A stretch of 64,000 nucleotides of DNA from Pseudobutyrivibrio sp. GTDB taxonomy: Bacteria; Bacillota; Clostridia; Lachnospirales; Lachnospiraceae. The DNA is taken from positions 1 to 64,000 of the forward strand of contig JAILGH010000106.1 in assembly GCA_024697025.1 (NCBI GenBank). The letters are read 5' to 3'. A model generated the notes under the pieces. The model saw nothing but the letters and a program-made list of their open reading frames with translations, searched no databases and was not told the origin of the DNA. A program made the translations under genes and the position numbers. This document shows positions 93 through 4,609 of this stretch, piece by piece (the stretch's first letter is position 1; each line of letters starts with the position of its first letter).

Positions 93-141
93 TTTTTTAC
101 CTTATAGGAGATTGCAAAGCAATTTCCTATAAGGTAAAAAA
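93..141. repeat. Near-perfect long hairpin (ttttttaccttataggagattgc-aaa-gcaatttcctataaggtaaaaaa)
   Basis: Self-complementary arms of about 23 nt read directly; 3' of the CPBP gene. Confidence 0.8.
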
Positions 142-182
142 TCCTCCCACCATCCGCAATTTTGCGGATAGTGGAAGGATTT
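140..182 (-). terminator. Hairpin downstream of CPBP gene (aatcctcccaccatccgcaattttgcggatagtggaaggatt)
   Basis: Inverted repeat followed by T-rich sequence on the minus strand. Confidence 0.6.
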
Positions 183-223: not shown

Positions 224-1288
224 TTATTCAACCACTTCAACCTGCTCCATAGTAGCCTTTTTCTTTTTGCCATAGATTGGAGCAAATATAAACACTATAA
301 GGACAATATCACAAATAAGAGCCGCTGGAATATCAGACCATTTCAACTCCATATTTGTGATTCCACTTCCATCTTCGCTAATTAAAGGTGTTATCATCTG
401 AAGTAATCCATCCCAAAGAAAATGCATCAGCGTAACTAGCCAAATATTATTAGTCTTCATGTAAACATATCCTAGGAAGATTGCTATGCCAATACAGCCA
501 ACGATTTGATTTACAAGCATCTGTGGACCAGATGTTCTTGTGTAAAACATAAAGTCTAACCCAGCATGCCATAATCCCCAAACAACGCCTAAAATTAAGA
601 TGCCTAATCTTTTACCAAATTTATTCTGCAAAATTGGTTGCAAATAATATCTCCATCCATACTCTTCGCCAAAAATTGTAAAAAAGCTTATAAAGAATGA
701 AGCTGCAATGATTGCTACCGCCCTCCAAAGATAGATATTTGTGAATAAATCATTATAAGTTGCTATTAGTTCTGAGCTATTATCACTTACTAAACCAGAA
801 ATGTAAAATCTTGCTATAAATACAACTAAAAATAATACTAAAAGTCCTATGCTTAAACCTACTTTGTTACGGCTTAATCCAGCATTTGCTCTCTTTTCCT
901 TGCCGCATACCCAAGAAAGAATGTAGACTACCACACTAGCTGCGTAGATTATATATAAAAAGCAAACCGATAACAGTGGAGCCTCACTCGAAGCAGTCTT
1001 TATCATAGTAGGTTCAACAAAAAGATTTACGATGCTGACTAGTAACATGATTGCTGAAAAAGCAATATATGTTATAAAAAATGCTTTTGGCATTTTCTTA
1101 TCCTTGTTTCCATACAACAACAGGCCTAATATTACGCCGCATGCTGGCGTAGTCATCTGCGTTTGTACTAACAACGATGAATCCCTTCCCGCCTGTATTC
1201 CAAAATACATTAATACGTTTAGTACGATAGTCACTCCATAAGCTATCGCCAAAAACACAACCAACCTTTTCTTCTCATTTTTCTCCAT
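224..1288 (-). CDS. CPBP family intramembrane glutamic endopeptidase (CAAX protease-like)
   Basis: Multi-TM protein with EEYGWRYYLQ, GLWHAGLD and LMHFLWD motifs. Confidence 0.85.
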   Translation of the reverse strand: MEKNEKKRLVVFLAIAYGVTIVLNVLMYFGIQAGRDSSLLVQTQMTTPACGVILGLLLYGNKDKKMPKAFFITYIAFSAIMLLVSIVNLFVEPTMIKTASSEAPLLSVCFLYIIYAASVVVYILSWVCGKEKRANAGLSRNKVGLSIGLLVLFLVVFIARFYISGLVSDNSSELIATYNDLFTNIYLWRAVAIIAASFFISFFTIFGEEYGWRYYLQPILQNKFGKRLGILILGVVWGLWHAGLDFMFYTRTSGPQMLVNQIVGCIGIAIFLGYVYMKTNNIWLVTLMHFLWDGLLQMITPLISEDGSGITNMELKWSDIPAALICDIVLIVFIFAPIYGKKKKATMEQVEVVE

Positions 1289-1320: not shown

Positions 1321-2103
1321 CTACTCTCTTCCCTTATTTTTATATTTATACGTTGCCCTAAAATATATAATGGTTTCAGCCAACCATGATAAGCAAATCA
1401 GGATGACTGCCATAATACCTGTTTCAAAAAATCTATTGCCAAAGTTCGCTACTAAAAAAGCTACAGCATTTATCCAAACAAGACTCTTATATACCTCATA
1501 AGCTGACTTATATATAATCATCTTTTGGCCTTCATCTTTGCCTTCAAACATTCTTTTGTAAAAGCCAAAATCCAACACATTAGCATAGCAGTCTTGCTTT
1601 AACTCATATTCAAGTGAAACTACTCTACCCTGTAGTGCAGTTGTCCAAATTATCGTAAACATAATAGCAATAATACCTATTACTGTACTAGCCACATGGG
1701 ATGCAGCCTCAAATCCAACACAAGAGTTTAATCCAGCAAATAATAAAATTAGTACTACCGTTATATTACTTATAGCATTTACTAAAAACAAATCATGCTC
1801 TAGCTTATCAATAGTGATTTCATCCTCTCCATCCCATTTCTTAGCAAGTTTGCTGCTTTTAGCATAAAGATACAGGCAAACCAGAAAAACTAGACAACTA
1901 CAAGTCAAGATTGCTACAGGTAACCATGTTAGTAATGCACCTTTAAATGTGGTTGCTATATTATCTTTAATCCCGTAATAATTTATTACGTAAAAGATCA
2001 CTCCCAAAATTGCAGATGCGAACATAATTGCAAATATGACTGCAACAAATGTGACTATAACCTCTGAATTGTATTTTTTATTTTTTAAACTTTCCATCTT
2101 CAT
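1321..2103 (-). CDS. DUF3169-like membrane protein
   Basis: Multi-TM 260-aa ORF next to a small XRE regulator, the usual DUF3169 context; family recalled, not searched. Confidence 0.6.
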   Translation of the reverse strand: MKMESLKNKKYNSEVIVTFVAVIFAIMFASAILGVIFYVINYYGIKDNIATTFKGALLTWLPVAILTCSCLVFLVCLYLYAKSSKLAKKWDGEDEITIDKLEHDLFLVNAISNITVVLILLFAGLNSCVGFEAASHVASTVIGIIAIMFTIIWTTALQGRVVSLEYELKQDCYANVLDFGFYKRMFEGKDEGQKMIIYKSAYEVYKSLVWINAVAFLVANFGNRFFETGIMAVILICLSWLAETIIYFRATYKYKNKGRE

Positions 2104-2138: not shown

Positions 2139-2342
2139 CTATTCTTCAACATATTCAAAAATATCTTCCACTCTAACATTGCACTTCTTGGCAATCTTTA
2201 ATGCTAGAGTAACTGATGGCGAGTAATCTCCTCGCTCAATCTGACTAATTGTCTGACGGCTAGTGCCAACAAGAGCACCCATCTCCTGCTGATTAACCCC
2301 CAGGCGAGCACGTTGCTCCTTGAGATGATTAATTAGTGGCAT
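2139..2342 (-). CDS. XRE/YozG-like HTH transcriptional regulator
   Basis: 67 aa; RLGVNQQEMGALVGTSRQTISQIERGDYSPSVTLALKIAKKCNVRVEDIF HTH_3 signature. Confidence 0.95.
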   Translation of the reverse strand: MPLINHLKEQRARLGVNQQEMGALVGTSRQTISQIERGDYSPSVTLALKIAKKCNVRVEDIFEYVEE

Positions 2343-2358
2343 ATCAATACTCCTTTCA

Positions 2359-2449
2359 TGACAACTATATATGTCACTTTGACAAGAATACTTGTCATCC
2401 TCCGATACCCATAATACAATATGACAAGAATAGTTGTCAAGTATTGTAT
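2359..2449. promoter_or_regulatory. Three TGACAA-N6-TTGTCA-type operators overlapping the XRE promoter
   Basis: tgacaactatatatgtca (2359-2376), tgacaagaatacttgtca (2380-2397), tgacaagaatagttgtca (2422-2439); the last overlaps a minus-strand -35 TTGACA (2435-2440). Confidence 0.8.
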
Positions 2450-2500
2450 GCTCATCTTTGCCGTGGTAACATTAATCCAGCTAATATAAAGAGGTGACAT

Positions 2501-3538: not shown

Positions 3539-3707
3539 ACTGGTTCTTCTCCGGATTATAGTGATAATCAATAGAGGCAAGTCTGGCGATGATATCATCG
3601 CCATCTACCTCGTTATCTTCTACAAGCTCCTCAAAGCTTTTATAATAATCTCTAAGTGCAGTGTTTACTACAGAAAGTAGCATCACTGGGTCCTTTGGGA
3701 AATTCAT
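3531..3707 (-). CDS. DUF4250-like small protein (58 aa, absent from the ORF track)
   Basis: Translation MNFPKDPVMLLSVVNTALRDYYKSFEELVEDNEVDGDDIIARLASIDYHYNPEKNQFK; TAATG overlap with the upstream CPBP stop. Confidence 0.8.
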   Translation of the reverse strand: MNFPKDPVMLLSVVNTALRDYYKSFEELVEDNEVDGDDIIARLASIDYHYNPEKNQFK

Positions 3708-4609
3708 TATTCTGTCTCCTCTGTTGTCCCCTTTACATCCCCTTCTTGAATTGGTGCCTCGCTAGTCTCTGGAAAATTACCTTCATTTCTTGCTATAGCA
3801 TTAATTACCATTCTGGATAAGAAGAATGAGCCAATAGAAAGCACGCCAAAGAATACTAATGAAGTAACCATACTACTCTGATTTGCCCTTCCCTGCTCAG
3901 CTAGCTCAGCCAAATTGCCACCCATCTGGGATACAAATCTTGATACGCAATATAGTAACAATAGATTTCCGCCATTAGTAAGCATATGCATGATAATGGA
4001 TGTAAAAATACTGCCACTGGCGTTGTTTGCATAAACAAATATTATACCAAGCACAAATGCGTAGAAAGCCTGATTAATATTCAAATGTAAAATTGCAAAT
4101 AGCAAAGCAGAAACTATCGCTGTGGCCAAAAGAGGCATATATCTTCTAAGTCTATTTGCAAAAAATCCTCTACAGATAATCTCTTCAGCAATTGGTGCAA
4201 TTATCGCAGTTGCAACAAATGACATTAAAAAGTTAGAACCTAAAATATCGTCTGATGCCTGTAGTACTGTATTTGGAACAAACATCTGAGATAAAAGGTT
4301 TGCAAACGTCACCATTGGTCCAGAAACTATAGTAAGTAAAACAGTAAAAAAAACTGTGCTTGCCTTAATCTTTTTAAAACCAAGACTTGGCAGGAACTTT
4401 TCGCCCTTTATAGATGTATAAACAAGGGTTGTTGCAATTAACAAAGCATAAATTACTACTGAAATGGTCAACATTGAGATACTCTTGTTGGATGTGGTCT
4501 CCAATACTTGCACTACAACAGTAGTACCAATCATTATACATATCTCTATGGCAAACACCAGCAGTAGTTTAACCACTTCACATTTAGCATTAATCTTTTT
4601 TTCGTTCAT
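3707..4609 (-). CDS. CPBP family intramembrane metalloprotease
   Basis: IIAPIAEEIICRGFFANRLRRY motif; start moved to MNEKK because ggaggagaa SD lies immediately upstream (ORF track start 4672). Confidence 0.85.
   Translation of the reverse strand: MNEKKINAKCEVVKLLLVFAIEICIMIGTTVVVQVLETTSNKSISMLTISVVIYALLIATTLVYTSIKGEKFLPSLGFKKIKASTVFFTVLLTIVSGPMVTFANLLSQMFVPNTVLQASDDILGSNFLMSFVATAIIAPIAEEIICRGFFANRLRRYMPLLATAIVSALLFAILHLNINQAFYAFVLGIIFVYANNASGSIFTSIIMHMLTNGGNLLLLYCVSRFVSQMGGNLAELAEQGRANQSSMVTSLVFFGVLSIGSFFLSRMVINAIARNEGNFPETSEAPIQEGDVKGTTEETE

Follow-up and report, generated by a model that had tools for sequence, protein, structure and literature searches.

Putative operators of an AyrR-type repressor, spaced in 21-bp steps, at the promoter of an XRE–DUF3169–CPBP operon in Pseudobutyrivibrio

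The stretch of DNA analyzed here (hereafter, the window) comprises 64 000 nucleotides of a Pseudobutyrivibrio sp. contig and contains, at the promoter of a three-gene operon, three dyads of the form TGACAA-N6-TTGTCA. Comparative sequence analysis indicates that these dyads are very probably the operators of the adjacent 67-aa AyrR/CylR2-type XRE protein, through which this protein would repress its own XRE–DUF3169–CPBP operon. Autorepression by this CylR2-like protein is well supported by the conservation of the array, its exclusivity to the XRE gene, the overlap with the −35 element and the 21-bp steps between sites. With this array, AyrR and the DUF3169 protein, a pair of regulators that is widespread but has received little study, gain a precise operator code that is open to testing, and rumen and gut Clostridia are linked to the characterized case in Staphylococcus aureus.

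Predicted operator sites and operon layout

The features of the module and its immediate surroundings are as follows, with the operator sequences read in the direction of the operon.

139..182, minus strand: intrinsic terminator-like hairpin at the operon end, a 20-pair stem followed by a T run
224..1288, minus strand: CPBP (Rce1-like) intramembrane protease, 354 aa (PF02517, 4.8e-19), candidate effector of the operon
1321..2103, minus strand: AyrA-like DUF3169 membrane protein, 260 aa (PF11368, 1.4e-30), predicted to relay a signal to the repressor
2139..2342, minus strand: XRE/Cro-type repressor, 67 aa, AyrR-like and CylR2-like (Pfam HTH_3, 1.6e-15; CylR2 1utx, E 1e-12)
2359..2376, minus strand: putative operator O3, TGACATATATAGTTGTCA, one mismatch, in the left half; 21 bp past O2
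2380..2397, minus strand: putative operator O2, TGACAAGTATTCTTGTCA, exact dyad just 3' of the predicted transcription start
2411..2416, minus strand: −10 element TATTAT, with an 18-bp spacer; transcription probably starts near 2404
2422..2439, minus strand: putative operator O1, TGACAACTATTCTTGTCA, exact dyad covering the promoter spacer and part of the −35 hexamer
2435..2440, minus strand: −35 element TTGACA, sharing TGACA with O1; T precedes TGACAA in 97% of 65 aligned loci
2464..2472, plus strand: extended −10 TGGTAACAT of the divergent fliB promoter, predicted by sequence comparison; outside the module

The three dyads start at 2359, 2380 and 2422, i.e. 21 and 42 bp apart, exactly as in the original prediction, and they are real, well past the chance expectation: first-order Markov sequences of 64 kb contain, on average, 0.33 sites with at most one mismatch, and none of the 60 runs produced two sites within 90 bp of each other. 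Of the promoter-like sequences in the region, TTGACA-18-TATTAT at 2440–2411 on the minus strand matches best (11/12), and the XRE, DUF3169 and CPBP genes follow in this order on the same strand, with gaps of ~35 bp and 32 bp. The copy at 2422, which had been described as promoter-proximal, does overlap the −35 element but is the copy with the greatest distance to the XRE start codon; the other two follow the predicted transcription start and precede the ribosome-binding site. The longer dyad that had been noted at 2414–2449 is likewise there in the letters, with one outer arm overlapping the −10 element, but its outer arms are not kept in relatives. The genome search that had been proposed for TGACAA-N6-TTGTCA returned exactly two exact sites in the 2.7-Mb draft genome, both at this array; the remaining one-mismatch sites (n = 11) all fall within ORFs that are 248 codons or longer, so that the XRE regulator has no visible second target.

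Conservation of the array with the XRE gene

By sequence comparison, the predicted operators are both conserved with the XRE regulator and exclusive to it. The search with the XRE protein yielded 80 loci, one per species-level genome, mostly from gut and rumen bacteria, with XRE proteins 79–93% identical. When the window is added to these relatives, 80 of the 81 loci have exact operators ahead of the XRE operon, the sole exception (L038) being cut off by the contig end. In 44 of the 80 relatives, the dyads lie no more than 250 bp from the XRE start; in most of the others, the array is separated from the XRE gene by a longer leader or by an extra gene, ahead of which it lies. The DUF3169 gene directly follows the XRE gene in 74 of the 80 relatives.

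Proteins of ~190–300 aa are encoded between the array and the XRE gene in L027, L029, L036, L043, L058 and about 18 other loci. These proteins mostly belong to one family, with the consensus KGxxIxxxSKxxxxK ... GRVY, and nearly all of them lack a Pfam match, two matching DUF3267 and one, weakly, 3H.

The search in the opposite direction, with the paired-operator pattern, gave matches in 29 of 299 Lachnospiraceae genomes, and all 30 loci contain, within ~1.2 kb, an XRE gene that is 64–100% identical in all but one case; the reversed pattern, used as a control on the same 299 genomes, gave 0 matches. At the class level, all eight loci above the cut-off in the DUF3169 family search (the window counted) combine an XRE gene with at least one exact dyad. 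At the phylum level, the operator is kept by L184 and L188, and the TGACAA dyad is absent at the XRE–DUF3169 pairs L185 and L187; thus, this operator is not universal among DUF3169 partners, and a different one is expected at the latter two loci.

Spacing and helical phase

A site equivalent to O1, combined with TTGACA and a −10 element at a distance of 16–18 bp, is present at 69 of the 81 loci, with the distance equal to 17 bp in 58 of them; the T that precedes O1 in nearly all aligned cases (97%) makes the hexamer read TTGACA. Beyond O2, further sites are found at 21, 42 or 63 bp (47, 14 and 2 cases, respectively), so that all 63 steps are multiples of 21. In most of these sites, the right half matches TTGTCA perfectly and the left half is weaker, and a left-half-degenerate site 21 bp past O2, as O3 in the window, is the usual arrangement in the relatives. 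The distance between O1 and O2 is 30–35 bp in 52 loci and 39–44 bp in 15, with none at 36–38 bp; values of 33–35 bp (48 of 69 loci) are commoner than the 42 bp of the window. Where there is an extra site upstream, it is mostly 26 bp away, i.e. about half a turn out of phase. In the DUF3169 tree, with 71 labelled loci, there are six switches between the O1–O2 spacing classes, three of which are forced by well-supported branches.

The avoidance of 36–38 bp, together with the several switches between spacing classes, suggests some helical constraint, although the half-turn offset of the extra upstream sites implies that such a constraint would be soft. The earlier proposal that the bound dimers share one DNA face holds in part: the invariant two-turn step of 21 bp fits it, but the 42-bp gap is not general and the 26-bp upstream sites are off-phase. 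Given these sites and the commoner 33–35 bp between O1 and O2, strict placement of all sites on the same face is not a rule of the family.

Probable autorepression and the alternative explanations

In the cooperative autorepression by the adjacent XRE protein that had been predicted, the autorepression is strongly backed by the reciprocal phylogenetic footprinting, whereas cooperative contact across O1 and O2 is no more than possible, because the spacing between them varies and the 26-bp sites are out of phase. For binding, cooperativity, signal and the effector role of the CPBP protein alike, we infer the following scheme. A dimer of the XRE protein on O1 would cover the −35 element and the spacer and block RNA polymerase; further dimers would fill O2 and O3, on the same face, two helical turns apart and just past the start, tightening the repression, with the degenerate O3 probably occupied through contacts with its neighbor. 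The repressor would be dedicated to its own operon, no other credible site being found in the genome. If the pair works like AyrR/AyrA of S. aureus, the DUF3169 protein would sense membrane stress, that is, unprocessed secretory proteins piling up, and free the repressor, and this release would induce the downstream CPBP protease.

That the dyads act in the 5' leader as RNA hairpins, by attenuation or RNA–protein regulation, rather than as DNA operators, is highly improbable: the leader RNA, as predicted, does include O2 and O3, and a 7-bp hairpin could form from some copies, but the best-conserved copy, O1, is upstream of the −10 element and hence untranscribed, and of 163 exact sites only 29 are complementary at the inner positions 7/12 and only 23 at 8/11, below the chance rate, which argues that a longer stem is not being kept. 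The hairpin reading was rejected on these two grounds. Inverted repeats of this type serve many dimeric regulators, and another, global regulator could be imagined to bind the dyads, with the XRE gene merely one of its targets; however, apart from the two exact sites of the array, the genome offers one-mismatch sites within genes, and across the 299 genomes paired sites occur near this XRE gene only. With the exact genome sites confined to this array, a genome-wide regulon was rejected, and such a regulator is hardly credible. A third possibility is that the operators mainly co-regulate, along with the module, the divergent neighbor of the XRE operon, fliB, which encodes a flagellin lysine-N-methylase (flagellin methylation). 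O1 ends 25 bp from the extended −10 of fliB, so that the promoter of fliB overlaps that of the module, which leaves room for steric effects at this locus. Nevertheless, this arrangement is an unlikely purpose of the array: fliB is nearly universal in the genus (27 of 29 genomes), but the module is missing from the 28 congeners, with DUF3169 found in 0 of the 28 searched; of 24 fliB loci outside the genome of the window, L123 is truncated and none of the rest carries a dyad upstream; and fliB adjoins no relative of the module. A motif like the extended −10 of the window recurs ahead of fliB in several congeners. The predicted influence of the array on fliB is thus unsupported, and co-regulation was rejected as a conserved feature across the genus and the relatives of the module; the possible effect on fliB is, at most, a local steric one in this genome. 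Since DUF3169 is absent from the congeners and the dyads from their fliB loci, the module appears to have been acquired and inserted beside fliB.

The remaining alternative accepts autorepression and concerns the signal: the XRE–DUF3169 pair might be triggered by envelope stress, such as that from antimicrobial peptides, in the way that CylR2/CylR1 is by its lantibiotic signal, and not by unprocessed secretory proteins. CylR2 is the nearest solved structure to the XRE protein of the window (1utx; phmmer E 1e-12 over residues 3–65), CylR1 is likewise a membrane partner (PMC3709268), and a Macrococcoides plasmid carries an XRE–DUF3169 pair divergent from lanM. On the other side, three membrane helices are predicted for CylR1 (PMC3709268), which is not described as a DUF3169 protein, and AyrA, the one DUF3169 protein with a tested function that was found, relays secretion stress (PMC5727409). 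An envelope-stress signal accordingly appears rather doubtful, and an AyrA-like signal relay by the DUF3169 protein, based on the analogy with the staphylococcal system, is probable.

A CPBP protease as the possible effector

Beyond autorepression, the most interesting point of the module is the presence of a CPBP protease in the effector position. Among the ORFs downstream of DUF3169 in the relatives, ABC ATPases (20/111 versus 6/330 elsewhere) and CPBP proteases (9/111 versus 2/330, p = 1e-4) are enriched, both comparisons being uncorrected for relatedness. This enrichment marks the CPBP protease as a recurrent alternative partner, and suggests such proteases as a second output class of the AyrR–DUF3169 switch. 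In the window, the protease would be the effector of a secretion-stress response; tentatively, it can be proposed that, in an AyrR–AyrA switch of gut Clostridia, the CPBP protease can replace AyrBC and acts on unprocessed preproteins anchored in the membrane, which it clears or cleaves, and the conserved 21-bp operator ladder tunes the repressor. Cleavage of the proteins that S. aureus releases through AyrBC takes place within the signal peptide (PMC5727409, PMC5013292); if the alternative effector is indeed a protease, this would bear on how such cleavage works.

A second CPBP gene is located at 3707–4609 of the window, across fliB from the operon, and is close kin to the CPBP gene located immediately after DUF3169 in L026 and L048, which suggests that the operon has been rearranged.

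Comparison with characterized systems

Compared by protein and gene layout, Enterococcus faecalis CylR2 is the same kind of small Cro-type repressor (66 aa, against 67 aa in the window; 48% identity) and is likewise paired with a membrane protein, CylR1. The two systems differ in that CylR2 governs a divergent cytolysin operon, whereas the divergent gene in the window is fliB, and in that the partner of the repressor in the window is a DUF3169 protein, which CylR1, with its three predicted helices, is not; neither a CylR1 partner nor a divergent cytolysin operon was found at the window locus. On the Macrococcoides canis plasmid pB8 (L205), the lanM gene divergent from the XRE–DUF3169 pair encodes a lanthipeptide synthetase, and the operator there is degenerate.

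The gene pair of the window is shared by a characterized system, the ayrRABC operon of S. aureus (cro/cI, SAUSA300_0350-0353). The AyrR protein of S. aureus (67 aa) represses the operon that encodes it, and its loss derepresses this operon; a point mutation 62 bp upstream (−62) acts like an operator mutation and derepresses it as well (PMC5013292); AyrA, a DUF3169 protein, is needed for induction by signal-peptidase inhibition, and ayrA nearly always follows ayrR, ayrBC being often absent in other species (PMC5727409). In both systems, a 67-aa XRE repressor gene directly precedes the gene for a DUF3169 protein with a D-E-(A/G) motif (in the window, with a 35-bp gap and matches to HTH_3 and PF11368), and the repressor acts, or in the window is predicted to act, upstream of its own gene. 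The DUF3169 protein of the window is modeled with six long helices and carries the motif between the fourth and the fifth; the motif reads D-E-G-Q, compared with D-E-(A/G)-E, so that the last residue differs, and the DE is invariant in 28 homologues. The fold search of the PDB with this protein gave no match (best E 0.32), and structure thus offers no hint of its mechanism. The third gene of the window operon is a CPBP protease, followed by the terminator, where ayrRABC has the AyrBC ABC transporter; the window operon, which lacks AyrBC, is therefore an AyrRA pair and not an ayrRABC operon, and a role in secretion stress would follow by analogy only. For the operators, the ayrRABC type was represented by the S. 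epidermidis sequence, standing in for S. aureus: this operon (XRE–DUF3169–ABC–ABC2), the regulator of which is 54% identical to the XRE protein of the window, carries TGACTAATATACTTGTCA with weaker copies exactly 21 bp to each side, an operator of the same type. The XRE–DUF3169 module of the window is a further case of the AyrR–AyrA kind, characterized in staphylococci.
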